Shown: positions 2,199 to 29,313 of the stretch, piece by piece
Layout: every line of letters begins with the position of its first letter
How positions within the stretch are numbered: position 1 is the stretch's first letter
Assembly: GCA_028282935.1 (NCBI GenBank)
Contig: JANQGU010000119.1
Span: forward strand, 1 to 32,184
Direction: 5' to 3'
Source: Kiloniellales bacterium
GTDB lineage: Bacteria; Pseudomonadota; Alphaproteobacteria; Kiloniellales; JAKSBE01
DNA length: 32,184 nt
Notes under the pieces: generated by a model
What the model saw: the letters and a program-made list of their open reading frames with translations, nothing else
Told to the model about the DNA's origin: nothing
Database searches by the model: none
Translations under genes and position numbers: made by a program

Positions 2199-3860
2199 TC
2201 AGCGCTGCGCGCTTTCCCAGTCCGGGTGGATCCAGGGTTCCTGGTTGGAGGGCGGCAGGGGATCGCGGCCGAGGATGTGGTCGCTGGCCTTCTCGCCGAC
2301 CAGGATCGAGGGGCCGTTGAGGTTGCCGTTGGTGATCTGCGGGAAGATCGCGGAGTCGGCGACCCTGAGGCCCTCCAGGCCGATCACCCGGCACTCGGGA
2401 TCGACCACCGCCTTGGGATCGTCCGCTGCGCCCATGCGGCAGGTGCCGCAGGGGTGGTAGGCGCTCTCGACCGCCTCGCGGATGAAGTCGTCGAGCGCGG
2501 CATCGCTCTCGGCCTCCGGCCCCGGCGCGATTTCCCGCCCGCGGTAGGCATCGAAGGCCGACTGGGCGAAGATCTCGCGGGTCAGGCGGATGCAGGCGCG
2601 GAAGTCGGCCCAGTCCTCGGGTTGCGAGAGGTAGTTGAAGCGGATCTCCGGCGCCGCCTCGGGATCGGCGGAGCGCAGGCGGACCCAGCCGCGCGACTTG
2701 GAGCGCATTGGCCCGACGTGGGCCTGGAAGCCGTGGGTCTTGGCCGGCGCCTTGCCGTCGTAGCGGATCGCGACCGGCAGGAAGTGGAACTGGATGTCCG
2801 GATAGCGCACTCCGGCCTTGGAGCGGATGAAGGCGGCCGACTCGAAATGGTTGCTGGTGCCGTGGCCGCGCTTGAAGAACAGCCACTCGGCGCCGATCCG
2901 CGCCTTGGACAAGAGGTTGAGCTGGGAATAGAGGGTGATCGGCTGGGTGCAGGCCTGCTGGACGTAGAGCTCCAGGTGGTCCTGCAGGTTCTCGCCGACT
3001 CCCGGCAGCGCGTGCAGCGGGGCGACGCCGGCCGCCTTCAGGCGCGCCGGATCGCCGATGCCGGAGAGCTGCAGCAGCTTGGGCGAGTTGATCGCGCCGG
3101 CGGCGAGCACGACCTCGCGGGTCGCCCTGGCGAGGATCAGGCGGCCGCCGCGGCGGTACTCCACGCCGACCGCGCGCTTGCCTTCCAGCAGGACGCGCTG
3201 GACCAGGGCCCGGGAGACCAGACGCAGGTTCGGACGCTTCAGCGCCGGCTCCAGGTAGGCCTTGGCGGCGGACCAGCGGTTGCCCCGCCAGACCGTCATC
3301 TCCATCGGCCCGAAGCCTTCCTGCTTGGCGCCGTTGTAGTCGGCGGTCAGCTCATAGCCGGCTTGGCGGCCGGCCTCGACGAAGGCCTCGTAGAGCGGGT
3401 TCGCCCGCGGGCCGCGGGTGACGTGCAGCGGCCCGGCCTCGCCGCGCCAGCCGGCCTCGCCGCCGTGGCTCGACTCCAGCCGCTTGTAGTAGGGCAGGAC
3501 GTGGCGGTAGCCCCAGCCGGCGGCGCCGGCCGCCTCCCAGCCGTCGAAGTCGCAGGCGTGGCCGCGCACGTAGACCATGCCGTTGATCGAGGAGGAGCCG
3601 CCGATCACCTTGCCGCGCGGGCAGGCGAGGCTCCGCCCGCCGAGCTGCGGCTCCGGCTCGGCCCGATAGCCCCAGTCGTAGCGCTTCATGTTCATGGGGT
3701 AGGAGAGGGCGGCCGGCATCTGGATGAAGGGCCCGGCGTCGCTGCCGCCGTGCTCCAGCAGCAGCACCCGGTGCCGCCCCTCCGCGCTCAGCCGCTCCGC
3801 CAGCACGCAGCCGGCCGAGCCGGCCCCGACCACGATGTAGTCGTAGCTCTCGGCGCTCAT
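2199..3860 (-). CDS. betA: Choline dehydrogenase (GMC flavoprotein)
   Basis: Oxidises choline to betaine aldehyde (and can often carry out the next step), FAD-dependent and associated with the inner face of the membrane in the characterised enzymes. The 553 residues match the usual BetA length of about 550-560. Visible features: FAD dinucleotide fold [10 protein letters not shown] at residues 12-21, the GMC signature [14 protein letters not shown] near residue 90, the catalytic His region [10 protein letters not shown], the C-terminal ITNGNLN segment with the paired active-site Asn, and the BetA-like tail ending in HPDWESAQR. It is the last gene of the leftward betI-betB-betA set. It is split from betB by 366 bp of palindromic repeats instead of the usual short gap, so it may have reduced or separate expression. 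The symbol rests on motifs plus the betI/betB context. Confidence 0.92.
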
Positions 3861-3909
3861 GACGACTCACCGTTGCTGGGTCGCACGCACCACCCTTCGG
3901 TTCTCCCCG

Positions 3910-4000
3910 CTGTCATCACCGGACTTGATCCGGTGATCCATGACCGGCGACGGGCGCGAAGCGGCACCATGGATGCCCGGATCAAGTCCGGGCATGACAG
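3910..4000. repeat. 91-bp palindromic repeat unit, copy 1
   Basis: A unit bounded by CTGTCA and TGACAG, made of two 33-bp inverted arms (3910-3942 and 3968-4000) around a 25-bp centre. Each arm is itself a hairpin: stem ATCACCGGA/TCCGGTGAT at 3915-3937 and stem ATGCCCGGA/TCCGGGCAT at 3973-3995, each with a 5-base loop. Elements of this CCGGACTTGATCCGG type are common between genes in alphaproteobacteria and give spurious MPGLDPGIH-like reading frames. Confidence 0.9.
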
Positions 4001-4041
4001 TGGAGTGGGTGGCAGCGGCTGGGGCATGGCGGATGCCATGA

Positions 4042-4064
4042 AAGCCCGGATCAAGTCTGCCTTG
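4042..4064. repeat. Degenerate remnant of the palindromic repeat
   Basis: GCCCGGATCAAGTCTGCC resembles the right arm of the 91-bp units, but the second half of the stem is mutated so the hairpin is lost. It lies between the two intact copies and suggests an older third insertion or duplication. Confidence 0.55.
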
Positions 4065-4095
4065 CGACCGTGGCCCGGCTCTCGCCACTCTCTCG

Positions 4096-4186
4096 CTGTC
4101 ATCACCGGACTTGATCCGGTGATCCATGGCAGACGACGGGCGCCCGGCGGCGCAATGGATGCCCGGATCAAGTCCGGGCATGACAG
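4096..4186. repeat. 91-bp palindromic repeat unit, copy 2
   Basis: Same architecture, length and orientation as the copy starting 186 bp to the left. The left hairpin is at 4101-4123 and the right hairpin at 4159-4181, with terminal CTGTCA and TGACAG. The arms are nearly identical between copies while the 25-bp centre differs at several bases, as expected if the stem structure is what is conserved. It sits just downstream of the betB stop codon. Confidence 0.9.
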
Positions 4187-4226
4187 CGGAACGGGTTGCG
4201 GGCGTCGTCGCATCGTCCGCCTCCGC

Positions 4227-5699
4227 TCAGTACGGGCAGTCGACGTCGCCCAGCTCGACGTAGACGCTCTTAAGTTGGGTGTAGTGCTCGATCGCGGCCT
4301 GGCCGTTCTCGCGGCCGATGCCGGACTGCTTGTAGCCGCCGAAGGGCATCTCGATCGGCGTGACGTTGTAGGTGTTGATCCAGCAGGTGCCGGCCTGCAG
4401 GCGGGCGATGACCCGGTGGGCGCGGGCCAGGTCGCGGGTGAAGACGCCGGCCGAGAGGCCGAAGGGCGTGTCGTTGGCCCGGGCCAGGACCTCGTCCTCC
4501 TCCTTGAAGGTCAGGATCGACATGACCGGGCCGAAGATCTCCTCGCGCACGATGGTCATGTCGTCGCGGCAGGCGTCGAAGATGGTCGGCTCGACGAAGT
4601 TGCCGGCCTGCAGCGCCGGGTCCTGCGGCCGGCCGCCGCCGGCGACCAGCCGGGCGCCGCCGGCCTTGCCGGCGTCGATGTAGCCCAGCACCTTCTCCAT
4701 GTGCTCGCGCGAGATCAGCGCGCCGACCTGGGTCTCCGGGTCCATGGGGTCGCCGATCCTCATGCCCTGGGTGCGCTCGGCGAGGCGGGCGACGAAGGCG
4801 TCGTGCAGGGACTCCTCGACGAAGACCCGGGTGCCGTTGGAGCAGACCTCGCCCTGGGTGTAGAAGTTGGCCAGCATCGCCGCCGAGACCGCGTTCTCCA
4901 GGTCGGCGTCGGCGAAGACGATCAGCGGCGACTTGCCGCCCAGCTCGAAGGTGACCTGCTTCAGGGTCGCCGCCGCGTCGGCCATGACCGCCTTGCCGGT
5001 GCCGACCTCGCCGGTCAGCGAGACCTTGGCGATGCCGGGATGGCGGCTCAGAAGCTGGCCGGTGGGGGCGAAGCCCTGGACCACGTTGAAGACCCCGTCG
5101 GGAACCCCGGCCTCGCTGTAGATCTCGGCCAGCTTGAGCGCGGTCAGCGGCGTCAGCTCCGCCGGCTTGAAGATCATGGCGTTGCCGCAGGCCAGCGCCG
5201 GGGCCGACTTCCAGCAGGCGATCTGGATCGGGTAGTTCCAGGCGCCGATCCCGGCGCAGACGCCCAGCGGCTCGCGCCGGGTGTAGGCGAAGGCACTGCC
5301 CAGGTCGATGTGCTCGCCGTGCAGCGAGGCGGCGAGGCCGGCATAGTACTCGATGCAGTCGGCGCCCGAGGCGACGTCGACCGTCTCGGCCTCCTGGATC
5401 GGCTTGCCGCTGTCCAGGACCTCGAGCTCGGCCAGCTCGCGGTTGCGCGCGCGTAGCAGGGCCACGGCCTTCGTCAGGATCCGGCCGCGCTCGGCGCCGG
5501 TCATGGCCGACCAGGTCCGGAAGCCGGCCTCGGCGGCGGCGACCGCGCGGTCGACATCCTCGGGCCCGGCGATCTGGATGTCGCAGATGACCTCGCCGGT
5601 CGCCGGGTTGAGGTTCTGGAAGGTCTCGCCCTCGACGGCGTCGACCAGGCGGCCGCCGATGAAGAGTTGCTGGCGGGGCAGGCTGCGGGCTGCGGTCAC
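4227..5699 (-). CDS. betB: Betaine aldehyde dehydrogenase
   Basis: NAD(P)-dependent oxidation of betaine aldehyde to glycine betaine in the cytoplasm, the second step of osmoprotectant synthesis from choline. Starting at the GTG at 5699 gives 490 residues, the usual BetB length. The open frame extends about 100 codons further up, but that part overlaps betI and is not BetB-like. The GTG overlaps the betI stop as GTGA, a 4-base overlap implying translational coupling. Seen in the protein: the N-terminal QLFIGGRLV, the general base Glu in FELGGKSP, and the catalytic Cys in [14 protein letters not shown], followed by EEIFGPV and the C-terminal [14 protein letters not shown]. Aldehyde dehydrogenase is certain; the BetB assignment comes from length, motifs and gene context. 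Confidence 0.95.
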
Positions 5700-6536: not shown

Positions 6537-7481
6537 ATGACCGCCAAGCGATTCCTTGCCGTTGTTACCTTGTCGCTGCTGGTTTCGGCCGGCGCGGCCC
6601 AGGCCGCGGAGCCGGAGTCCTGCAAGCAGGTCCGCCTGTCGGACGTCGGCTGGAGCTGCGTCACCGCGACCACGTCGATCGCGGTCTCGATCCTCGAGGG
6701 CCTCGGCTACGAGACCAAGGTCGACGTGCTCTCGGTGCCGGTGACCTTCCAGAGCCTGGCCAACAACGACATCGACGCCTTCCTCGGGCTTTGGCTGCCG
6801 ACCCAGCAGAGCATGATCGCCCCCTACTTCGAGAAGCAGCAGGTCGACAAGGTCGCGACCAACCTGGAGGGCGCCAAGTACACCCTGGCGGTCAACAAGG
6901 CGGCCTACGACGCCGGCGTGAAGACCTTCGCCGACCTGGCCGCGAACAAGGACAAGTTCAAGGGCAAGATCTACGGCATCGAGCCGGGCAACGACGGCAA
7001 CCAGATCATCCAGGACATGATCGATAACGACGCCTTCGACCTGAAGGGCTGGGAGCTGGTCGAGTCCTCCGAGCAGGGCATGCTGGCCCAGGTCGAGCGC
7101 GCTGGGAAGCGCGAGGACTGGATCGTCTTCCTGGGCTGGGCGCCGCATCCCATGAACCGGCGCTTCGAGATGGCCTACCTCGACGGTGGCGACGACTACT
7201 TCGGGCCGAACTACGGCGGCGCCACGGTCTACACCCTCGCGCCCGCCGGCTACAGCGAGCGTTGCCCCAACGTCGGCCGGCTGCTGAAGAACCTGACCTT
7301 CTCCCTCGACATGGAGAACGAGATCATGGGCTACATGCTCGACGAGGGCATGGATCCCCAGGCGGCGGCGGTCAAGCTGGTCAAGAGCCATCCCGAGCTG
7401 GTCGACCGCTGGCTTTCCGGCGTCACGACCCGGGACGGCGGAGAGGGCGCCGCCGCGGTGAAATCGCACCTGGGCATGTAA
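6537..7481 (+). CDS. choX: Periplasmic choline-binding protein of an ABC importer
   Basis: Captures choline in the periplasm and delivers it to the ChoW/ChoV importer. It has 314 residues with a signal peptide at 1-23 (cleavage AQA-AE). Compared with the Sinorhizobium meliloti ChoX numbering I recall, the aromatic cage is conserved with a constant offset of four: W39, W86, Y115 and W201, plus N152 in PGNDGN. The position equivalent to Asp45 is Cys41 here (DVGWSC), an unusual change in a ligand-contact residue. Other cysteines are C29 and C243, which could pair. A strong GGGGAGG site precedes the ATG. It is the first gene of the rightward cho operon, under the predicted BetI-controlled promoter. 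Confidence 0.93.
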   Translation: MTAKRFLAVVTLSLLVSAGAAQAAEPESCKQVRLSDVGWSCVTATTSIAVSILEGLGYETKVDVLSVPVTFQSLANNDIDAFLGLWLPTQQSMIAPYFEKQQVDKVATNLEGAKYTLAVNKAAYDAGVKTFADLAANKDKFKGKIYGIEPGNDGNQIIQDMIDNDAFDLKGWELVESSEQGMLAQVERAGKREDWIVFLGWAPHPMNRRFEMAYLDGGDDYFGPNYGGATVYTLAPAGYSERCPNVGRLLKNLTFSLDMENEIMGYMLDEGMDPQAAAVKLVKSHPELVDRWLSGVTTRDGGEGAAAVKSHLGM

Positions 7482-7590
7482 GCCGCGCAGATCGTGCTAG
7501 GCTGAGACGCCGCGGCGCCGGGCGGTCGGGAAGACGGGGGCGGAGCCAGGTCTCCCGGCCCCTCGACCGCAGCGGCGGCCGAGGCGTTTC

Positions 7591-7632
7591 TGCTCAAGCC
7601 CCGGTGCTCAAGCCCCAGTGCTCAAGCCCCAG
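7591..7632. repeat. Three tandem 14-bp repeats in the choX-choW gap
   Basis: TGCTCAAGCCCCGG, TGCTCAAGCCCCAG and TGCTCAAGCCCCAG run head to tail. They lie in the 230-bp gap between choX and choW, which otherwise holds only a small CCTCG/CGAGG hairpin at 7561-7584. No gene is seen in the gap. Confidence 0.85.
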
Positions 7633-7645
7633 TACGGAACCTGCG

Positions 7646-7667
7646 AAAAATGACTCTGACCCCTTTT
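7646..7667. other. Possible mobile-element end motif
   Basis: AATGACTCTGACCCCTTTT resembles the GGGGTCAGAGTCATTTT-type sequence that I recall flanking REP-associated (Y1) transposase genes in many bacteria. Only one copy and no transposase is present, so at most this is a remnant. Confidence 0.3.
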
Positions 7668-7711
7668 CTTGACCGCCCTTCGTTTCGGCAGGGGCGGAGG
7701 GACGGCGCGCC

Positions 7712-8572
7712 ATGGACTGGCTGACCGATCAGATCGAGGCCGTGAAGATTCCCGTCGGGCCCTGGGGCGCCGGCCTGATCGACCTCATGACCACGCACTT
7801 CGCCGCGGCCTTCGACCTCTTCTCGCAGGGCCTGGAGGCGGTGATCGACGGCCTGACCGATACGATGCTGTGGTTCCCGCCGCTGGTCCTGATCGCGATC
7901 ATCGCGGCCATCGCCTATTGGCTGCAGCGGTCCTGGGCGCTGGTCGGCGGCGTGGTCGCCTCGCTGCTGTTCATCGTCAACCAGGGCTATTGGGAGCCGA
8001 CCATCAACACCCTGGCCCTGGTCGGCGTGGCGACCTTCCTCTGCATGCTGCTGGGCGTGCCGGTCGGCATCGCCGCGGCGCATCGGCCCTGGCTCTACAC
8101 CGCGATCCGGCCGGTCCTGGATCTGATGCAGACCCTGCCGCCCTTCGTCTATCTGATCCCGACGGTCGTGCTCTTCGGGCTGGGCGTGGTGCCGGGGCTG
8201 ATCTCGACCATCGTCTTCGCGATCCCGGCGCCGATCCGCCTGACCTACCTCGGCGTCTCCTCGACGCCGGTCCAGCTCACCGAGGCCGCCGAGTCCTTCG
8301 GCGCGACCAAGAGCCAGCTCCTCTGGAAGGTCGAGCTGCCCCACGCCCTGCCGACCATCATGGCCGGCTTCACCCAGGCGATCATGCTGTCGCTCTCGAT
8401 GGTGGTGATCGCCGCCTTCGTCGGCGCCGGCGGCCTGGGGACCTACGTGGTGCGGGGTCTGCAGCAGCTGCGTCCGGAGATGGGCATCGAATCCGGCCTG
8501 GCGATCGTGATCCTGGCGATCCTGCTGGACCGGATCTGCAAGCAGCCGGAACGGAAGGCCCAGGGGCAGTAG
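7712..8572 (+). CDS. choW: Choline ABC importer permease
   Basis: Inner-membrane subunit of the choline/betaine importer family (ProW/OpuAB type). The 286 residues carry about six hydrophobic segments: about 50-68, 72-90, 104-126, 140-163, 172-190 and 215-245. The coupling EAA loop reads EAAESFGATKSQLLWKVELP at about residue 192, followed by the typical GAGGLG. The ATG follows a GGAGG site in GGCGGAGGGACGG. It sits between choX and choV in the standard order. The 230-bp gap after choX may let the binding protein be made in excess over the membrane subunits. Confidence 0.92.
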   Translation: MDWLTDQIEAVKIPVGPWGAGLIDLMTTHFAAAFDLFSQGLEAVIDGLTDTMLWFPPLVLIAIIAAIAYWLQRSWALVGGVVASLLFIVNQGYWEPTINTLALVGVATFLCMLLGVPVGIAAAHRPWLYTAIRPVLDLMQTLPPFVYLIPTVVLFGLGVVPGLISTIVFAIPAPIRLTYLGVSSTPVQLTEAAESFGATKSQLLWKVELPHALPTIMAGFTQAIMLSLSMVVIAAFVGAGGLGTYVVRGLQQLRPEMGIESGLAIVILAILLDRICKQPERKAQGQ

Positions 8573-8590
8573 AGGACAACCAGCCTGATC

Positions 8591-9814
8591 ATGTCGGTCG
8601 TCGAATTCAACAAGGTCGATATCGTCTTCGGAAAGCTGCCCGAGGGCGCCCTGCCCCTGCTGGACCAGGGCCGTTCGCGCGAGGAGATCCTGGAGGAGAC
8701 CGGCAACGTCCTCGGCGTCGCGGACGCCTCTCTCGCGGTTGCGGAAGGCGAGATCTGCGTCCTCATGGGCCTCTCCGGCTCCGGCAAGTCGACCCTGCTG
8801 CGCGCGGTCAACGGCCTGAACCCGGTGACCCGCGGCGAGGTCCTGGTCCGCGACGGCGCCGAGATGATCGACGTCGCGAGCTGCGACGCCGCCACCTTGC
8901 GGCGGCTGCGCAGCGACCGCATCGCCATGGTCTTTCAGCAGTTCGCCCTGCTGCCCTGGCGCACCGTGGAAGAGAACGTCGGCCTCGGCCTGGAGCTGCG
9001 CGGCATGGGCCGGGACGAGCGCCGGGCCGTGGTCGAGGAGAAGCTCGAGCTGGTCGGCCTGGAGCAATGGAAGGACAAGTACGCCCACGAGCTCTCCGGC
9101 GGCATGCAGCAGCGGGTCGGCCTGGCCCGCGCCTTCGCCACCGACGCCGACATCCTGCTGATGGACGAGCCCTTCTCGGCGCTCGACCCGCTGATCCGCA
9201 CGCACCTCCAGGACGAGCTGCTGGAGCTGCAGCGGAGCCTGAGGAAGACCATCATCTTCGTCAGCCACGACCTGGACGAGGCCCTGAAGCTGGGCAGCGA
9301 CATCGCGATCATGGAAGGCGGCCGGATCGTCCAGGTCGGGCGCCCGGAGCAGATCGTGCTCGATCCGGTCAACGACTACGTCGCCGAGTTCGTCGCCCAC
9401 ATGAACCCCCTGGACGTGCTGCGGGGCGCCTCGCTGATGACGCCCTTGCAGGAGTTGCGGCGCGAGGGCGACGCCGTGCTGCTGGACGGCGAGGGGCGCT
9501 TCCGGATCGAGCTCGACGGCAGCGGTGCGCCCAGCGCCGTCAGCCTCGATGGCCGGCCCGGCCGCCTGCTGGCCTATCGGCCGGACCAGGACCCGGAGGC
9601 CTGGCGCGACGCCGCGCTGATCACCGCCTCGACCGAGATGACCCTGCGCACGGCGATCGAGCTGCGCCAGGCCAGCGGCCATCCGGTCGCCCTGCTCGAG
9701 GACGGCCGCCTTGTCGGCGTCTGCGGCGATGACGAAATCTATAGAGGGATCCTGCGTCAGGCCGCCTTGGCACCGGCCAAGACCAAGAAAGAGGAGGCCC
9801 GCGATGCGGTCTAG
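8591..9814 (+). CDS. choV: Choline ABC importer ATP-binding subunit
   Basis: Cytoplasmic ATPase that energises ChoW. In its 407 residues: Walker A GLSGSGKST at 60-68, Q-loop VFQQFALLPWRTV, signature LSGGMQQRVGLARAF, Walker B DILLMDEPFSALD and switch His in FVSHDLDEAL. The N-terminal 45 residues and the C-terminal region after about residue 275 (two weak CBS-like stretches) are as in ProV/ChoV proteins, where the C-terminal domain senses ionic strength. The start is the ATG 18 bases after choW. The 3' end overlaps the next gene by 11 bases. Confidence 0.93.
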   Translation: MSVVEFNKVDIVFGKLPEGALPLLDQGRSREEILEETGNVLGVADASLAVAEGEICVLMGLSGSGKSTLLRAVNGLNPVTRGEVLVRDGAEMIDVASCDAATLRRLRSDRIAMVFQQFALLPWRTVEENVGLGLELRGMGRDERRAVVEEKLELVGLEQWKDKYAHELSGGMQQRVGLARAFATDADILLMDEPFSALDPLIRTHLQDELLELQRSLRKTIIFVSHDLDEALKLGSDIAIMEGGRIVQVGRPEQIVLDPVNDYVAEFVAHMNPLDVLRGASLMTPLQELRREGDAVLLDGEGRFRIELDGSGAPSAVSLDGRPGRLLAYRPDQDPEAWRDAALITASTEMTLRTAIELRQASGHPVALLEDGRLVGVCGDDEIYRGILRQAALAPAKTKKEEARDAV

Positions 9815-21837: not shown

Positions 21838-22869
<1,032 letters not shown>

Positions 22870-22896: not shown

Positions 22897-22952
22897 TGCC
22901 TTGCTCGTCAGGCCTTGCCCGTTAGGCCTTGCCCGTTAGGCCTTGCTGGGGC
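22897..22952. repeat. Four tandem 14-bp repeats at the end of the glycosidase gene
   Basis: TGCCTTGCTCGTCA, GGCCTTGCCCGTTA, GGCCTTGCCCGTTA and GGCCTTGCTGGGGC are arranged head to tail. The two central copies are identical and the outer two are diverged. The glycosidase stop codon (TAA on the minus strand, 22938-22936) lies in the third copy, so repeat number change would move the stop. The remaining copies fill the gap before the ATPase gene. Confidence 0.8.
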
Positions 22953-24201
22953 TGGCCCAGGCCAGCCAGACCGCCGCGGTCCAGGTGAAGTCGCCGCCGC
23001 CGGCGCCGCTCCCGTCGCGCGGATCGTAGTATTCGTAGAAGCCTCCGCCCTCGATGAGGCGCCGGGTGTCGGCGCGCACGCGGGCCGCGGTGTCGACCAG
23101 CCCCGCCTCCTCGAGGCCGCGGCCGATCAGGTAGTTCATCACCGGCCAACTCGGCCCGCGCCAGTAGCGCCGGGCGTCGAACCTGGGATGCGCGGGATCG
23201 AAGCTCGGCACTCCGAAGGGCGCGGCCGAGAGGACTCGGTCCAGGGTGGCCAGCAGCCGGGCGTCGCGCCGGGGGTCCGAGATACCTGCGAAGAAGGCCA
23301 GGAAGGCGACGCTGGAAACGCCGTCGGCCGGCCTGCCGTCGCGCAGGTCCAGGGCGGCATAGCTCCGCAGCCGGTCCTGCCACAGCAGCCCCGCGCCCTC
23401 GGCAGCGCGGTCGACCCAGGTGGCGACCTCCCTGGCGCAGGCGCTTTCGCCCAGGGTCTCGGCCAGCGCGCCCAGGTCGCGGTCGGCCCGGGTCAGGATG
23501 AAGGTCAGGCCAGGATCGGCCACCGCCAGGGGGCCTTCCCGGGTGATCCGCAGGTGGTCCCAGGCGGCGGCCCGTCCCCACTCGATGATCCGGATGTAGC
23601 GGTCGTAGTCCTCCTGGGTCGGGCGCATCGCGGGGTCGACCTGGTGGATGTCGTGGCGGTCGTAGGGGGTCACCCCCGTGGGATCGACCTTGGCCATGGC
23701 CCCGTCCCAGTCCGGTGCGTTGTCGCGGCCCGACTCCCAGGGATGGGTGGCGGCGATGACGCCGCGGCCCTCGGGGTCGCGCGTCTCGTGAAACCAGCGG
23801 TGCCAGGCCAGGAGCTTGGGAAGCAGTGCCCGCGCCCGGGCCGCGCCCGCCGTCCGGTCCCGTTCGAAGAGGCTCCGCACCACCGTGGCCGCGAGCGGCG
23901 GCTGCGAGTGCCCCGAGGTCGGCGGGACCTGCTCGCAACCCCAGACCGAGGGGCCGGGGAAGTAGTCGGCCCCGTTGTGGCGGAAGATGATGTGCGGGAC
24001 CATGCCGTTCGGCCATTGCCCCTCGAAGAGGGTCTCGATCTCGGTCCAGGCGCGGTCGAGGTCGAACTCGGCGAAGCCCAGCGCGGCGAAGGCCGAGTCC
24101 CAGTTCCACTGGTGGGGATAGAGGCCCGCCGAGGGCACGGTGAAGCCGCCCCGGTCGTTGGCCTTCATGATCTCCACGGCGCGGCGGTCGAGGTCGGCCA
24201 T
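22936..24201 (-). CDS. GH63-like glycoside hydrolase (mannosyl/glucosylglycerate hydrolase-like)
   Basis: A 421-residue soluble (alpha/alpha)6-barrel type hydrolase; no signal peptide, so cytoplasmic. The opening RGGFTVPSAGLYPHQWNWDSAFAALG, then GMVPHIIF and WESGRDNAPDWD at 155-166, the acidic TPYDRHDIHQVDP at 178-190 and FYEYYDP at 388-394, are as in MGH1-type GH63 enzymes that cleave mannosylglycerate or glucosylglycerate. The length is also like the bacterial mannosylglycerate hydrolases. The reaction would split an imported compatible-solute glycoside into sugar plus glycerate. The gene lies between permease and ATPase genes in one operon, 4 bases from the permease, so its substrate is most likely the transporter's cargo. 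The exact glycoside is inference. Confidence 0.82.
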   Translation of the reverse strand: MADLDRRAVEIMKANDRGGFTVPSAGLYPHQWNWDSAFAALGFAEFDLDRAWTEIETLFEGQWPNGMVPHIIFRHNGADYFPGPSVWGCEQVPPTSGHSQPPLAATVVRSLFERDRTAGAARARALLPKLLAWHRWFHETRDPEGRGVIAATHPWESGRDNAPDWDGAMAKVDPTGVTPYDRHDIHQVDPAMRPTQEDYDRYIRIIEWGRAAAWDHLRITREGPLAVADPGLTFILTRADRDLGALAETLGESACAREVATWVDRAAEGAGLLWQDRLRSYAALDLRDGRPADGVSSVAFLAFFAGISDPRRDARLLATLDRVLSAAPFGVPSFDPAHPRFDARRYWRGPSWPVMNYLIGRGLEEAGLVDTAARVRADTRRLIEGGGFYEYYDPRDGSGAGGGDFTWTAAVWLAWASPSKA

Positions 24202-24205
24202 GGCC

Positions 24206-25456
24206 TCAGCCCTTGACCGCGCCGGCGGCGAGGCCCTGCACCATGAAGCGCTCGAGCCAGAGGAAGATCGCCATGATCGGCAGGGTCGCGATGACCGCGC
24301 CGGCCATCATCAGCTCGCGCGGCAGCTCCGAGGAGTTCAGGGAGGCGACGCCGCGCGGCAGGGTGAAGATGCCGGGGTCGTCGAGGAACATGAAGGCGAA
24401 GAGGAACTCGTTCCAGGCGATCATGAAGACGTAGAGCGCGACCGAGGCCAGCGCCGGCAGGCTGAGCGGCAGGGTGATCTTGACGATCACGGCGGCCCGG
24501 CCCAGCCCGTCCATCAGCGCGGCCTCCTCGATCTCCGCCGGCAGGCCGCGGAAGTAGCCCTGCAGCATGTAGAGCGCGACCGGGATGGTGGTCGCCGGAT
24601 AGACCATCAGCAGGCCGATCAGGGTGTTGCGCAGCTCGAGCTGGCTGAAGACCGCGTAGATCGGCAGCACCAGGACGATCGCCGGCACCATGTAGATCAG
24701 CAGGATCGACTGCGCCCAGACGTCGCGCCCCGGGAAGCGCAGCCGGGCGACCGCATAGGCGCCCGGCACCGCGACCAGCAGGGTCAGGACCACCGTCGAC
24801 AGCGACACGATCGCCGAGTTGAGGATGTAGCCGCCGAAGTTGAAGCGGGTGAAGAGCTCGACATAGCTGCCGAAGAGGTCGTCGCGGCCGAGGTCGATGG
24901 AGAAGTCCAGCGGATTGGCCAGCAGCGCCGCCTGGCTCTTGAAGCTGGTCATCACCATCACGTAGAAGGGCAGCGCCACGAAGACGGTGAAGAGGACGAA
25001 GCCGGCGCCCCGGGCGATGCCGATCATCAGGCGCTCGAAGTCGTAGCGGCTCAGGCGGCCCAGGGGCGCGCCGCCGAGGCAGAGCCAGTTGGCCTGCGCC
25101 ACCGCGCCGGCGAAGAGCAGCAGCGCGATCGCCTGCCAGAGAGTCGCCTCGGCCAGCGGCAGGCCGAAGGGCGTCCCCAGGGTCAGCAGCAGCAGCACCG
25201 CCAGGGTCGCGCCGCAGGAGACCGTCCAGCCCCGCCTCGCGCGCGCGTCCCGCGGGGTCAGCAGGACCGCGGCGGCGCCGGCCAGGCCAGAGAGCGCCGC
25301 CACCCCCACCGGCGGCCGCGTCGGCGCGCCCGAGACCAGGGCCAGGGCCACGCCGATCACGATCATGCCCAGGGTGCCGAAGACCAGGCCCGAGATCACG
25401 CCGACGCTGGCGCCCGAGCGCAGGCCGTATCCGCCTTGGTCCCGGATCGCCGCCAT
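24206..25456 (-). CDS. MalG-type ABC permease with extra N-terminal membrane domain
   Basis: Inner-membrane subunit of a CUT1 importer. It is 416 residues against about 280-300 for usual MalG proteins. Residues about 140-416 are the standard permease: RGAGFVLFTVFVALPFYVMVMTSFK and the EAA loop EEAALMDGLGRAAVIVKITLP at 310-330, with the usual C-terminal helices. Residues 1-135 are an extra block with about four hydrophobic segments (16-40, 50-66, 80-98 and 106-122). The ATG is one base after the stop of the MalF-type gene, so the pair is co-translated. No good ribosome site suggests a later start, but M144 with the usual permease N-terminus is an alternative. Confidence 0.88.
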   Translation of the reverse strand: MAAIRDQGGYGLRSGASVGVISGLVFGTLGMIVIGVALALVSGAPTRPPVGVAALSGLAGAAAVLLTPRDARARRGWTVSCGATLAVLLLLTLGTPFGLPLAEATLWQAIALLLFAGAVAQANWLCLGGAPLGRLSRYDFERLMIGIARGAGFVLFTVFVALPFYVMVMTSFKSQAALLANPLDFSIDLGRDDLFGSYVELFTRFNFGGYILNSAIVSLSTVVLTLLVAVPGAYAVARLRFPGRDVWAQSILLIYMVPAIVLVLPIYAVFSQLELRNTLIGLLMVYPATTIPVALYMLQGYFRGLPAEIEEAALMDGLGRAAVIVKITLPLSLPALASVALYVFMIAWNEFLFAFMFLDDPGIFTLPRGVASLNSSELPRELMMAGAVIATLPIMAIFLWLERFMVQGLAAGAVKG

Positions 25457-25457
25457 C

Positions 25458-26747
25458 TCAGCCCTCCTTCGGCGAGAAGCGGAAGAAGACCAGGGCGAAG
25501 GCGAGCAGGACGGCGAAGACCACCACGGCGACCGCCGCGCCGGCGCCGAGGTTCGACAGCGCGATCGCCTGTTCGTAGACGTCGACCGTCAGGGTCCGCG
25601 TGCCGGCGGCCCCGCCGGTCATCAGGAAGATGTCGTCGAACTTGTTGAAGGTCCAGATGAAGCGCAGCAGGAAGAGGATCGCCAGGATGGTCGCGAGCTG
25701 CGGCAGCGAGAGGTACCAGAACTGCTGGAAGGGCGTCGCGCCGTCGATCTCGGCGGCCTCGTACATGTCCGTGTTGATCGACTGCATCCGCGCCAGGATG
25801 AAGAGGAAGGACAGCGGGAAGTAGCGCCAGGCCTCGAAGACGATCACCGTGGTCAGGGCCAGCCGGAACTCGATCTCCAGGCCGAAGAGGTTGAGGGTGC
25901 CCGCCGAGCGTTGGCCGAGGAAGTTGATCGGCCCCTCCGTCGCGCCCATCTGCGCCAGGATCGCGTTCAGCGCGCCCGAGTTCGGGTCGAGCAGGGTGAC
26001 CCAGGTATAGGCGACCGCGATCACCGGAGCGACGTAGGGGAAGAGGAAGAGGCCGCGCAGGAAGGCCCGGCCGCGGAAGGCCTGGTTGAGCAGCAGCGCC
26101 GCGAAGAGGCCCAGGGCCAGCGCGCCGCCCGTGCCGAAGACGGTGTAGAGGATCGAGGTCCAGAGCACGTCCCAGAACTCCGAGGCGTTGAAGACGCGCC
26201 GGAAGTTGTCGAAGGTGAAGTCGAGGCTGGTCAGCGGGTTGTCGCCGCTGCCCGTCGTCAGCGGCGCCGAGCCCTCCAGCAGGGCCTCGGCGTCGGCGAC
26301 CGCCGCCGCGAAGGTCGCGTTGACGCGCACCCGCTCCCGGGCCCGCGGCTCCAGGTCGCCGAAGGCGCAGCGCAGCCGGCCCTCGGCCAGGGTGCAGCGC
26401 GGGTCCTCGACCGCCAGAGCGACACCCTCGGGCGCGCTGTCCTCGAAGGTGACGCCGGCCAGCGGCCGGTTCGGCGAGGTGTTGCGGACCGTGTAGACGA
26501 CCTCGAGGCTTTCCCCGGCGGCGATTGCCTCGCCGCGCACGCGTTCCGTGACCTTGGGCGCGGGCGGGCGCAGGTCGGCGAGCTGGACCGGCTTGGCGCT
26601 GATCCAGAAGTTCGCCAGCAGCGGCAGGGCGACGATCAGGGCGACGATCGCGAAGGTCGGGCCCAGCATCGCCCAGGCCAGGCGCGCCTCCCGCTTCTGC
26701 AGGGGGCCCGTGCCTCGAGGCGCGCCGGAAGGAGGCCTGGGCGACAT
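25458..26747 (-). CDS. MalF-type ABC permease with DUF11-like periplasmic insert
   Basis: Partner inner-membrane subunit (CUT1) of 429 residues. TM1 is at about 27-48. Residues about 60-165 form an inserted domain resembling DUF11-type beta-sandwich repeats: LEVVYTVRNTSPNRPLAGVT, then FEDSAPEGVAL and CTLAEGRLRCAFGDLEPRARERV, with C118 and C127 able to pair. The permease proper resumes with LDFTFDNFRRVF. The EAA loop reads YEAAEIDGATPFQQFWYLSLP, followed by the usual last helices. The insert sits where the large P2-type periplasmic loop is found in some MalF proteins, so it would face the binding protein. The gene is 27 bases after the binding-protein gene. Confidence 0.88.
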   Translation of the reverse strand: MSPRPPSGAPRGTGPLQKREARLAWAMLGPTFAIVALIVALPLLANFWISAKPVQLADLRPPAPKVTERVRGEAIAAGESLEVVYTVRNTSPNRPLAGVTFEDSAPEGVALAVEDPRCTLAEGRLRCAFGDLEPRARERVRVNATFAAAVADAEALLEGSAPLTTGSGDNPLTSLDFTFDNFRRVFNASEFWDVLWTSILYTVFGTGGALALGLFAALLLNQAFRGRAFLRGLFLFPYVAPVIAVAYTWVTLLDPNSGALNAILAQMGATEGPINFLGQRSAGTLNLFGLEIEFRLALTTVIVFEAWRYFPLSFLFILARMQSINTDMYEAAEIDGATPFQQFWYLSLPQLATILAILFLLRFIWTFNKFDDIFLMTGGAAGTRTLTVDVYEQAIALSNLGAGAAVAVVVFAVLLAFALVFFRFSPKEG

Positions 26748-26774: not shown

Positions 26775-28124
26775 CTAGAGCTTCGCCAGCTCCGCGTTGA
26801 TGGTCTTGGCGGCCTCCGCGGCCGAGACCTCGTCGTCGATGAACTGGCGCACGATCCGGTTGACGATCTGGCTGTTCAAGACCTTGGAGGCGGCGGAGAG
26901 CTGGCCCTCGGCGACGCCCCAGCGCTGGGCGGTGTCGAGGCCGGAGACGATCGCGGCGATGACCTCCGGCGGATAGACCTCGGTCAGCGGCGCCTTTCGG
27001 TCGACGCCGACCGGCAGGCCGGACCAGAGCTTGACGAACTTCTCCGGGTCGTCGCCGTCGCCGCGCCGCACCGGGAACTTGCCCTCGGGCGCGATCGACA
27101 GGGTCTGGGCATAGCCCTCGTCCAGGGCGTACTTGATGAACTCGATGGCCGCGTCGGTATCGGCGTTGGTGGTCACGCCGAGGTACCTGATGTCCGCCCA
27201 GGCCGCGCCGCTCGGATTGGAGGGCCCGGAGAAGGCGGTGACGACGCCGGTCATCCCGGCCAGCTCGCGGCTCGCCGGGTCGTCGTTGATGGTCGGCGGC
27301 GCGCTGTCGCGGAGTCCCGCCAGCTCGTCGAGGATAAAGGGCGACCAGATGATCATCGCCGCCTTGCCGGCGAAGTAGAGCTCGCGAGACTGCTTCCAGT
27401 AGAGCTCGCCCGGGGGCGAGGCCTTGGCGACGGCTTTGTAGAACTCCAGGCTCTCGACCAGCTTCTTCTCGTCGAAGCCGGCGATGCCCTTGGGGCCGAT
27501 CGGGGTCGCGCCGTTGGCCAGAAGCACGTGCTCCAGGACCTGGCTCATGAAGTTCTCGTCGATCTTGGTCGCCGCCACGAAGCCATAGAGCTCCGGCGGA
27601 TTGTGCAGCTTGTCCAGGGCGGCGCGGATGGCGTCGTAGGAGGTCGGCGCCGCCAGCCCGGCGGCGTCGAAGAGGTCCTTGCGGTAGATCACCATCTGGG
27701 TCCAGCCGTCGACCGGCACCGCCGCGAAGTCGCCGTCGATGTCGGCCATCTTCAGGGCGCCCGGCGCGAAGGTTCCGGCGTCCAGCTCCTCCAGCGCCTC
27801 GGTGTTGGCGTCGATGTCCAGGATCCCGGCCTCGGCCCAGGGCTGCACGTACTGCAGGGTGTGATAGATCACGTCCGGCAGGTCGTTGGCGGCGAAGGCG
27901 GCCGTCGCGCGCTTGCCGAGGTCGGTCTCGGTGACCGGGATCACCTCGACGGCGGTGCCGGTCTTGGACTCGAAGTCGGCCGCCAGCGCCTCCTGCTTGG
28001 CGAGGCGCTCAGGTTGTTCCTCGGTGGTCCACAAGCGGATCGAGTCCGCGGCCGCGGTGCTCGCAAACAGCAGCGCCGCCGCCGTGGCCGCCGCGAGCGC
28101 TGCCCGCGCCTTGCTGGTCGGCAT
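26775..28124 (-). CDS. Family-1 extracellular solute-binding protein
   Basis: Periplasmic carbohydrate-type binding protein of 449 residues, with a signal peptide at 1-26 (cleavage TAAA-DS). It shows the usual family-1 pattern: IRLWTTEEQPERL at the start, PDVIYHTLQYVQPWAEAGIL, MVIYRKDLFDAAGLAAPTSYDAIRAAL and AMIIWSPFILDELAG. The ATG follows a strong GGGAGGAAG site, which lies inside the lacI-type frame upstream. It is the first transport gene of the leftward operon. The substrate is unknown; the GH63-like gene in the operon points to a glycosylglycerate or a related alpha-glycoside. Confidence 0.9.
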   Translation of the reverse strand: MPTSKARAALAAATAAALLFASTAAADSIRLWTTEEQPERLAKQEALAADFESKTGTAVEVIPVTETDLGKRATAAFAANDLPDVIYHTLQYVQPWAEAGILDIDANTEALEELDAGTFAPGALKMADIDGDFAAVPVDGWTQMVIYRKDLFDAAGLAAPTSYDAIRAALDKLHNPPELYGFVAATKIDENFMSQVLEHVLLANGATPIGPKGIAGFDEKKLVESLEFYKAVAKASPPGELYWKQSRELYFAGKAAMIIWSPFILDELAGLRDSAPPTINDDPASRELAGMTGVVTAFSGPSNPSGAAWADIRYLGVTTNADTDAAIEFIKYALDEGYAQTLSIAPEGKFPVRRGDGDDPEKFVKLWSGLPVGVDRKAPLTEVYPPEVIAAIVSGLDTAQRWGVAEGQLSAASKVLNSQIVNRIVRQFIDDEVSAAEAAKTINAELAKL

Positions 28125-29238
28125 TTCTCTTCCTCCCTGGTTCTTTCCCCTCGCTTCGGCCGCGTCGGCGCCGCGCCGCGTCGAGCCGGGCCCTGAGCGA
28201 TTGCGGCGTCCGGGCGGGCGGGCCGTGCGAAGCGCGCGGGATCAGCGTCGCCGGCCGCAGCTCCTGCAGATCCTTGGCCCGGCGACCGCGCATCAGGTCG
28301 AGCAGCATCTCGGCCACCCGCGCGCCCGCGGCCTCGCTCTCCTGCGAGAAGGTGGTCAGCGGCGGGTCCATGAACTCGGCGTGGGGCACGTCGTCGTAGC
28401 CGATCACCGAGACGTCCCGGCCGACCGTCAGTCCCCGCGCGCTCAAGGCCCTGGCGGCGCCGATGGCGACCGCATCGCGTACGCAGAGCAGGGCCGTGGG
28501 CGGGCGCTCCAGCGCCATCAGGGCCTCGGCCCCGGCCCAGCCGTCCGCCGCCTGCAGGCCGGCGCGCCGGATCAGCGCCCGCTCGTCGTCCAGGCCGAGG
28601 GCGTCCCGCGCGGCGCGGTATCCGGCCAGCCGCTCGCGGGCGAAGTTGAAGGCGCCCTTGGCGGCGATGAAGCCGATCCGGCGATGGCCCAGGGCGGCGA
28701 GCCTCTCGGTCGCCTCGGCGAAGGCGCGCCGGTTGTCCATGTCGAACCAGGCGTACTGGCTCGGGTTCTCGGTGCGGCCGTGGCTGACGAAGGGCACGCC
28801 GCGCTGGCGCAGGTAGTGGATGCGCGGATCGCGGGTCTCGGTCCGGGTGACGATGAAGCCGTCGACCTTGCGCGAGGCGATCAGGCGGTCGTAGGCCTCG
28901 CGCCAGCGGCCCGGCCCGGGCGCGGTCGTGACCAGGAGGTCCAGGCCCTCGCGGTCGAGGGCGCGGGTCACCCCGCGGAGGAACTGCACGAAGAAGGGGC
29001 TGGCGATGTCGGGGCCTTCGCCGGTCAGGACCACGCCGACGGTGTCGACACGGCCGCGCTTGAGGTTCCGGGCCATGCTGGACGGGCGATAGCCGCAGCG
29101 GTCCGCGGTGCTGCGCACCAGTTCGCGGGTCTGTTCCGCGATATCGGGATAGCCGTTCAGCGCCCGCGAGACGGTGCTCTTGGCCAGTCCCAGTTCCCGC
29201 GCCAGAGTGTCGAGGGTCACGCCGTTCTTCGCCGGCAT
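28009..29238 (-). CDS. LacI-family transcriptional regulator with long overlapping tail
   Basis: Likely local repressor of the transport/glycosidase operon. The ATG at 29238 gives the typical start VTLDTLARELGLAKSTVSRALNGY (helix-turn-helix at about 8-28), followed by the hinge YRPSSMARNLKRGR and a periplasmic-binding-protein-like sensor domain (FVSHGRTENPSQYAWFDMDN, RIGFIAAKG). A normal family member would end near residue 335-345 (after LIPRASHG), but no stop follows in the frame. It continues about 70 residues of basic, low-complexity sequence and stops at 28009, overlapping the binding-protein gene by 116 bp. No stop occurs in the other two frames over the same gap. A sequencing indel or real overlap are both possible. 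GGGAGG lies 11 bases upstream of the ATG. Confidence 0.85.
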   Translation of the reverse strand: MPAKNGVTLDTLARELGLAKSTVSRALNGYPDIAEQTRELVRSTADRCGYRPSSMARNLKRGRVDTVGVVLTGEGPDIASPFFVQFLRGVTRALDREGLDLLVTTAPGPGRWREAYDRLIASRKVDGFIVTRTETRDPRIHYLRQRGVPFVSHGRTENPSQYAWFDMDNRRAFAEATERLAALGHRRIGFIAAKGAFNFARERLAGYRAARDALGLDDERALIRRAGLQAADGWAGAEALMALERPPTALLCVRDAVAIGAARALSARGLTVGRDVSVIGYDDVPHAEFMDPPLTTFSQESEAAGARVAEMLLDLMRGRRAKDLQELRPATLIPRASHGPPARTPQSLRARLDAARRRRGRSEGKEPGRKRNADQQGAGSARGGHGGGAAVCEHRGRGLDPLVDHRGTT

Positions 29239-29283
29239 TCCCGCAGCCGCCTCCCAAGGCTTCGTTCTTTGCACTTTTTCTAC

Positions 29284-29313
29284 TATTGAGGACCAGCAGG
29301 CGTCGGGATTCAA
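29284..29313 (-). promoter_or_regulatory. Possible promoter of the lacI-type gene
   Basis: Minus strand TTGAAT (29313-29308) and TCAATA (29289-29284) are 18 bp apart, about 45 bases from the start codon, in a locally AT-rich stretch. The match to the consensus is moderate. Confidence 0.35.

Follow-up and report, generated by a model that had tools for sequence, protein, structure and literature searches.

The window, by which we mean the whole 32,184-nucleotide stretch of DNA analysed here, contains an importer gene cluster that is read entirely from the reverse strand. A LacI-family regulator (28009-29313; LacI and Peripla_BP_3 domains above cut-off) is followed by a solute-binding protein which, judged from its sequence, has a cleavable signal peptide and no lipobox (26775-28124; SBP_bac_1, 81.4 bits). 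Two permeases, an MGH1-like glycoside hydrolase (22936-24201; PF22422, 391.6 bits) and an ABC ATPase with the Pfam domains ABC_tran and TOBE_2 (21838-22869) complete the cluster. The 3' end of the LacI-family reading frame overlaps the binding-protein gene by 116 bases (28009-28124) in another frame, and its C-terminal tail does not look like native protein, possibly owing to a frameshift or an error in the sequence close to the LacI end. Permease 2 (24206-25456) is a MalG-type protein of 416 amino acids whose N-terminal extension was recognized from hydrophobic segments and alignment.

Permease 1 (25458-26747, reverse strand) is an open reading frame of 429 amino acids with six hydrophobic segments at residues 26-44, 202-220, 228-246, 301-319, 346-364 and 404-422. 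Residues 210-420 match the Pfam domain BPD_transp_1 with 51.8 bits (cut-off 26.4), and residues 330-343 form the EAA-type motif EAAEIDGATPFQQF, in which E330, A331, A332, D335, G336 and A337 are invariant in the family alignment. This domain and this motif identify the protein as a CUT1 binding-protein-dependent permease of the MalF type.

Between TM1 and TM2, permease 1 carries an insert of the DUF11 type at residues ~61-173 (26229-26567, reverse strand), with boundaries set against relatives that lack it and presumably on the periplasmic side of the membrane. An earlier note on this DNA had placed a DUF11-like domain in the first periplasmic loop at 26253-26570, near these revised limits. 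Scanning of the whole protein gave a DUF11 (PF01345) score of 22.1 bits for residues 66-149, below the gathering score of 24.6, while the excised insert alone reached 24.7-24.9 bits, so that the case from the single sequence is marginal. Among 71 homologous inserts, however, 53 matched DUF11 at E<0.01 (best 1.3e-8), which strengthens the assignment, and the insert is best read as a divergent member of DUF11. When the PDB was searched by sequence with a profile of the insert, nothing was returned at E<=1. The presence of the insert in permease 1 is confirmed and not a product of chance.

AlphaFold2 modelling of the insert with 71 family sequences yielded a domain of eight strands with a mean pLDDT of 87, a pTM of 0.77 and block pLDDT values of >=90 over most of its length. 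The model confidently predicts a beta-sandwich, in agreement with the fold assumed in the earlier note. Foldseek placed an adhesin CLIPPER domain, carbohydrate-binding modules of the CBM2 type and domains of AP2 mu and macroglobulin among the best solved matches, all of them beta-sandwiches with 8-19% identity; these neighbours inform on fold class and not on function. The model of full-length permease 1 was weak in its membrane part (pTM 0.47), and no MalF appeared among the 50 Foldseek matches listed for it, which fit the insert region; the poor modelling of the membrane part is the probable reason.

The two-cysteine segment mentioned in the earlier note consists of Cys118 and Cys127 (26367-26396, reverse strand), both of which are conserved without exception in the 81 aligned sequences. 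They lie on a predicted hairpin of strands 118-121 and 124-132, in which the register taken from the model would place residues 118 and 127 opposite one another. As the pair is invariant and belongs to an exported domain, a disulfide between Cys118 and Cys127 probably locks the insert. Besides the cysteines, about 20 insert positions are conserved in >80% of the members. Conserved polar residues are E68, R71, R88, N89, S90, S91 and R137, together with R86, which is shared by most members; several of them lie outside the usual DUF11 motifs. The conserved arginines would suit an insert that itself binds a carbohydrate or anionic substrate and serves as a pre-concentrating or sensing module, as would its CBM2-type cellulose- or chitin-binding Foldseek neighbours 3ndy, 2rtt and 6qfs (E 5e-4 to 2e-3). 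Yet these matches share 12-19% identity and stand next to adhesin, AP2 and macroglobulin domains as generic beta-sandwiches, and the conserved columns contain no Trp/Tyr sugar platform, Y85 being the only such residue. We consider direct substrate binding very unlikely.

Profile alignment equated residue 179 of permease 1 with residue 261 of MalF, with collinearity from there onward, and the helix preceding the insert aligned with the helix preceding P2. Since the MalF_P2 domain spans MalF residues 100-260, the insert occupies the same site as P2: by alignment, it lies in the P2-equivalent loop, which joins helices one and two of the six-helix core. The analogy with MalF P2 drawn in the earlier note is therefore supported as to site. 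Kinship of the two domains is not supported by sequence, as hhalign gave a probability of 0.3% and the permease of the window did not match PF14785 (MalF P2) at E<=1, while the E. coli MalF control scored 206 bits against PF14785.

A scan with one genome per species recovered at least 80 loci, every one with the insert. Their hosts are mostly marine Alphaproteobacteria (Ruegeria, Roseibium, Thalassospira, Stappia, SAR116), and a few are labelled Gammaproteobacteria. Together with further genomes and two plasmid records, 97 family loci besides the window were assembled, a few of them near-copies. Measured from the helix end that follows TM1 up to where TM2 begins, all 97 have 132-142 residues, whereas the same stretch measures 21-27 residues in all 44 permeases outside the family, six paralogues of the window genome included. 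A general CUT1 feature is thereby rejected, as the earlier note had expected. At the family edge, profile scores dropped from 480 bits to 167 bits for the best outside sequence. In a tree of the permease core calculated after removal of the insert columns, one change explains the insert and the family forms one side of a branch with an SH-aLRT value of 93; sampling was biased towards sequences close to the query, and some of the outer branches are long. On this tree the insert was gained once in the permease lineage, and all family members seen have retained it. Beyond what the earlier note described, the insert is the mark of a transporter family that is widespread and has a conserved operon. 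No description of a DUF11 insertion in an ABC transporter permease was found in the titles and abstracts of a limited set of literature.

The insert diverges roughly 3.5-fold faster than the core of the permease (mean distances of 1.07 and 0.30), a rate that would fit a neutral passenger held in place by inertia. Against such a passenger stand the lack of any loss in the 97 family loci, the two invariant cysteines and the roughly 20 positions conserved in >80% of members, and we regard it as the least probable of the readings considered. Slightly less improbable, and still highly so, is the reading that the insert tethers the importer to the cell wall or to some other partner in the envelope, in the manner of DUF11 surface proteins. 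The sole other related stretch in 289 genomes of the class belongs to a surface-protein-like open frame of 3202 residues, which is in line with anchoring, but one short domain at the inner membrane cannot reach far and no anchoring motif was seen.

The conserved operon provides information on the likely substrate. In all of the at least 80 loci, binding protein and permease 2 adjoin permease 1; the ATPase is present in 77/80, the MGH1-like hydrolase in 76/80 and the LacI regulator in 65/80. Among the 289 genomes of the class, the hydrolase occurred in seven of eight with the insert and in four of 281 without it (Fisher 8e-11, relatedness ignored). The hydrolase of the window scored 355 bits against NF047898 (glucosylglycerate hydrolase), under the equivalog cut-off of 550, and hence is named here only gluco-/mannosylglycerate hydrolase-like. 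Its best solved relative is TTHA0978 (E 3e-113), which we take to be the mannosylglycerate hydrolase of Thermus. An insert-bearing importer on plasmid pD4M1C of Paroceanicella profunda belongs to an operon without the MGH1-like hydrolase. At this locus (L149), a divergent gene upstream of the LacI gene (3628-5328, reverse strand), annotated as alpha-amylase family, codes for a GH13 protein with the motifs PYELN and TETN, both reported as marks of glucosylglycerate phosphorylase (PMC10608839). A search of the at least 80 family loci for a GH13 phosphorylase found none. Four loci, of Thalassospira type and, in two cases, from roseobacters (L069, L093, L102, L191), keep the importer and have no hydrolase within several kb. 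The MGH1-like hydrolase and the Paroceanicella GH13 protein point to glucosylglycerate, with mannosylglycerate as the alternative, so that one of these related compounds is most likely the substrate of the importer. Marine cyanobacteria use glucosylglycerate as a compatible solute. Another compatible-solute uptake system of the window, an ABC importer of the glycine betaine type with an OpuAC binding protein, a permease and an ATPase, lies at 6537-9814 on the forward strand.

The nearest transporters without the insert come from Nonomuraea (L147) and the haloarchaea Halomarina (L148) and Haladaptatus (L150). Their permease cores show 44-46% identity, and they have a homologous binding protein (30-39%) and permease 2 (40-44%). 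They differ from the family in lacking both the insert and the permease 2 extension and in having a lipobox on the binding protein. A simple pattern test for a lipobox in the at least 80 loci was negative for all family binding proteins (0/80). By this motif, the binding proteins of the insert-free sisters could be held at the membrane, and the insert would fit an arm that offsets the missing membrane tether of the family binding protein, with the restriction that the difference in lipobox amounts to one event only and coincides with that between diderm and monoderm cell envelopes, which confounds it.

Three other alphaproteobacterial importers (G099, G115 and G187; loci L187-L189) resemble the family in clustering a LacI regulator, a binding protein, two permeases, an ATPase and a hydrolase of the same type. 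Their permeases, in contrast, are distant (26-30%) and without insert, and their binding proteins have no BLAST-detectable similarity to that of the window. These binding proteins also have no lipobox and yet their permeases do without an insert; a docking arm is thus not generally needed in such hydrolase-linked importers. At these loci the same kind of enzyme is served by two transporter types, with a similar LacI regulator and a different CUT1 importer.

The partner permease is enlarged as well. The sister proteins of Nonomuraea and the haloarchaea have 283-299 residues, and their alignment to permease 2 of the window starts only at residue 133-134. Permease 2 thus exceeds them by an N-terminal stretch of about 130 residues (residues 1-133) with four TM-like segments, giving ten in total in the window. 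A length of approximately 400-445 amino acids was found in 79/80 of the at least 80 loci, the exception reflecting a contig end or start choice, and the extension is kept throughout the family despite poor sequence conservation. With the insert in permease 1 and the extension in permease 2, both membrane subunits are enlarged in the same family. The co-occurrence of the two additions, both missing in the nearest relatives, would agree with an assembly or stability module that packs on the enlarged permease 2 and holds the heterodimer together without taking part in docking. Of the partial rate correlations with the insert, that of the permease 2 core was also the highest (0.22), but this value is weak, its interval overlaps the others and the extension itself gave about 0. 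Moreover, the extra helices of permease 2 lie in the membrane and the insert outside it. Overall, a pure assembly function seems unlikely. Mirror-tree analysis of rate covariation with the insert did not single out the binding protein, with partial correlations of 0.13 for the binding protein, 0.18 for the hydrolase and 0.17 for the ATPase.

We infer that the insert is a periplasmic arm that aids docking of the soluble binding protein, as a non-homologous counterpart of MalF P2, and put the probability of this reading, drawn by analogy, at about 0.52. It is proposed because of the P2-equivalent site, the family-wide retention, the conserved polar residues and the lipobox contrast with the sisters. 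According to this model, a DUF11-type beta-sandwich, probably disulfide-locked, would have entered the first periplasmic loop of the MalF-type subunit once and then been kept; the importer itself most likely takes up glucosylglycerate or the related mannosylglycerate. The domain would rise from the membrane beside the translocation path, contact the soluble binding protein and hold or orient it during sugar hand-over, a role parallel to that of the unrelated P2 of E. coli MalF acting on MalE. A broader scenario of convergence, in which adoption of a soluble binding protein was accompanied by gain of DUF11 at the P2 site, independently of the gain of P2 in MalF, and of four partner helices to give a distinct type I importer architecture, is tentative and somewhat unlikely.

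Among accessory loops, P2 of MalF is the textbook example, from the model ABC importer; a few permeases have such a domain and most have none. The unrelated domain that a widespread marine family carries at the P2 site offers an independent test case for docking arms, and its recognisable architecture marks an importer, probably of glucosylglycerate, that belongs to common bacteria of the sea. P2 (residues 91-271 of MalF) contacts MalE directly (PMC3150292). It is located between MalF helices 3 and 4, is common to MalF1 and MalF2 of Thermotogales and is smaller or absent elsewhere (PMC2246101). Like P2 of E. coli MalF, the insert adds a periplasmic domain to a CUT1 permease, and it does so between the same pair of core helices. 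It is smaller, with about 113 residues versus 160-180, and permease 1 lacks the N-terminal helix pair of MalF and belongs to a different transporter clade. With DUF11/B_ant_repeat proteins (PF01345, TIGR01451) the insert shares a profile match at the cut-off, the N and D.LP.G motifs and the predicted beta-sandwich. It differs from the usual DUF11 domain of surface proteins as a single copy in an ABC permease loop and by its invariant cysteine pair.
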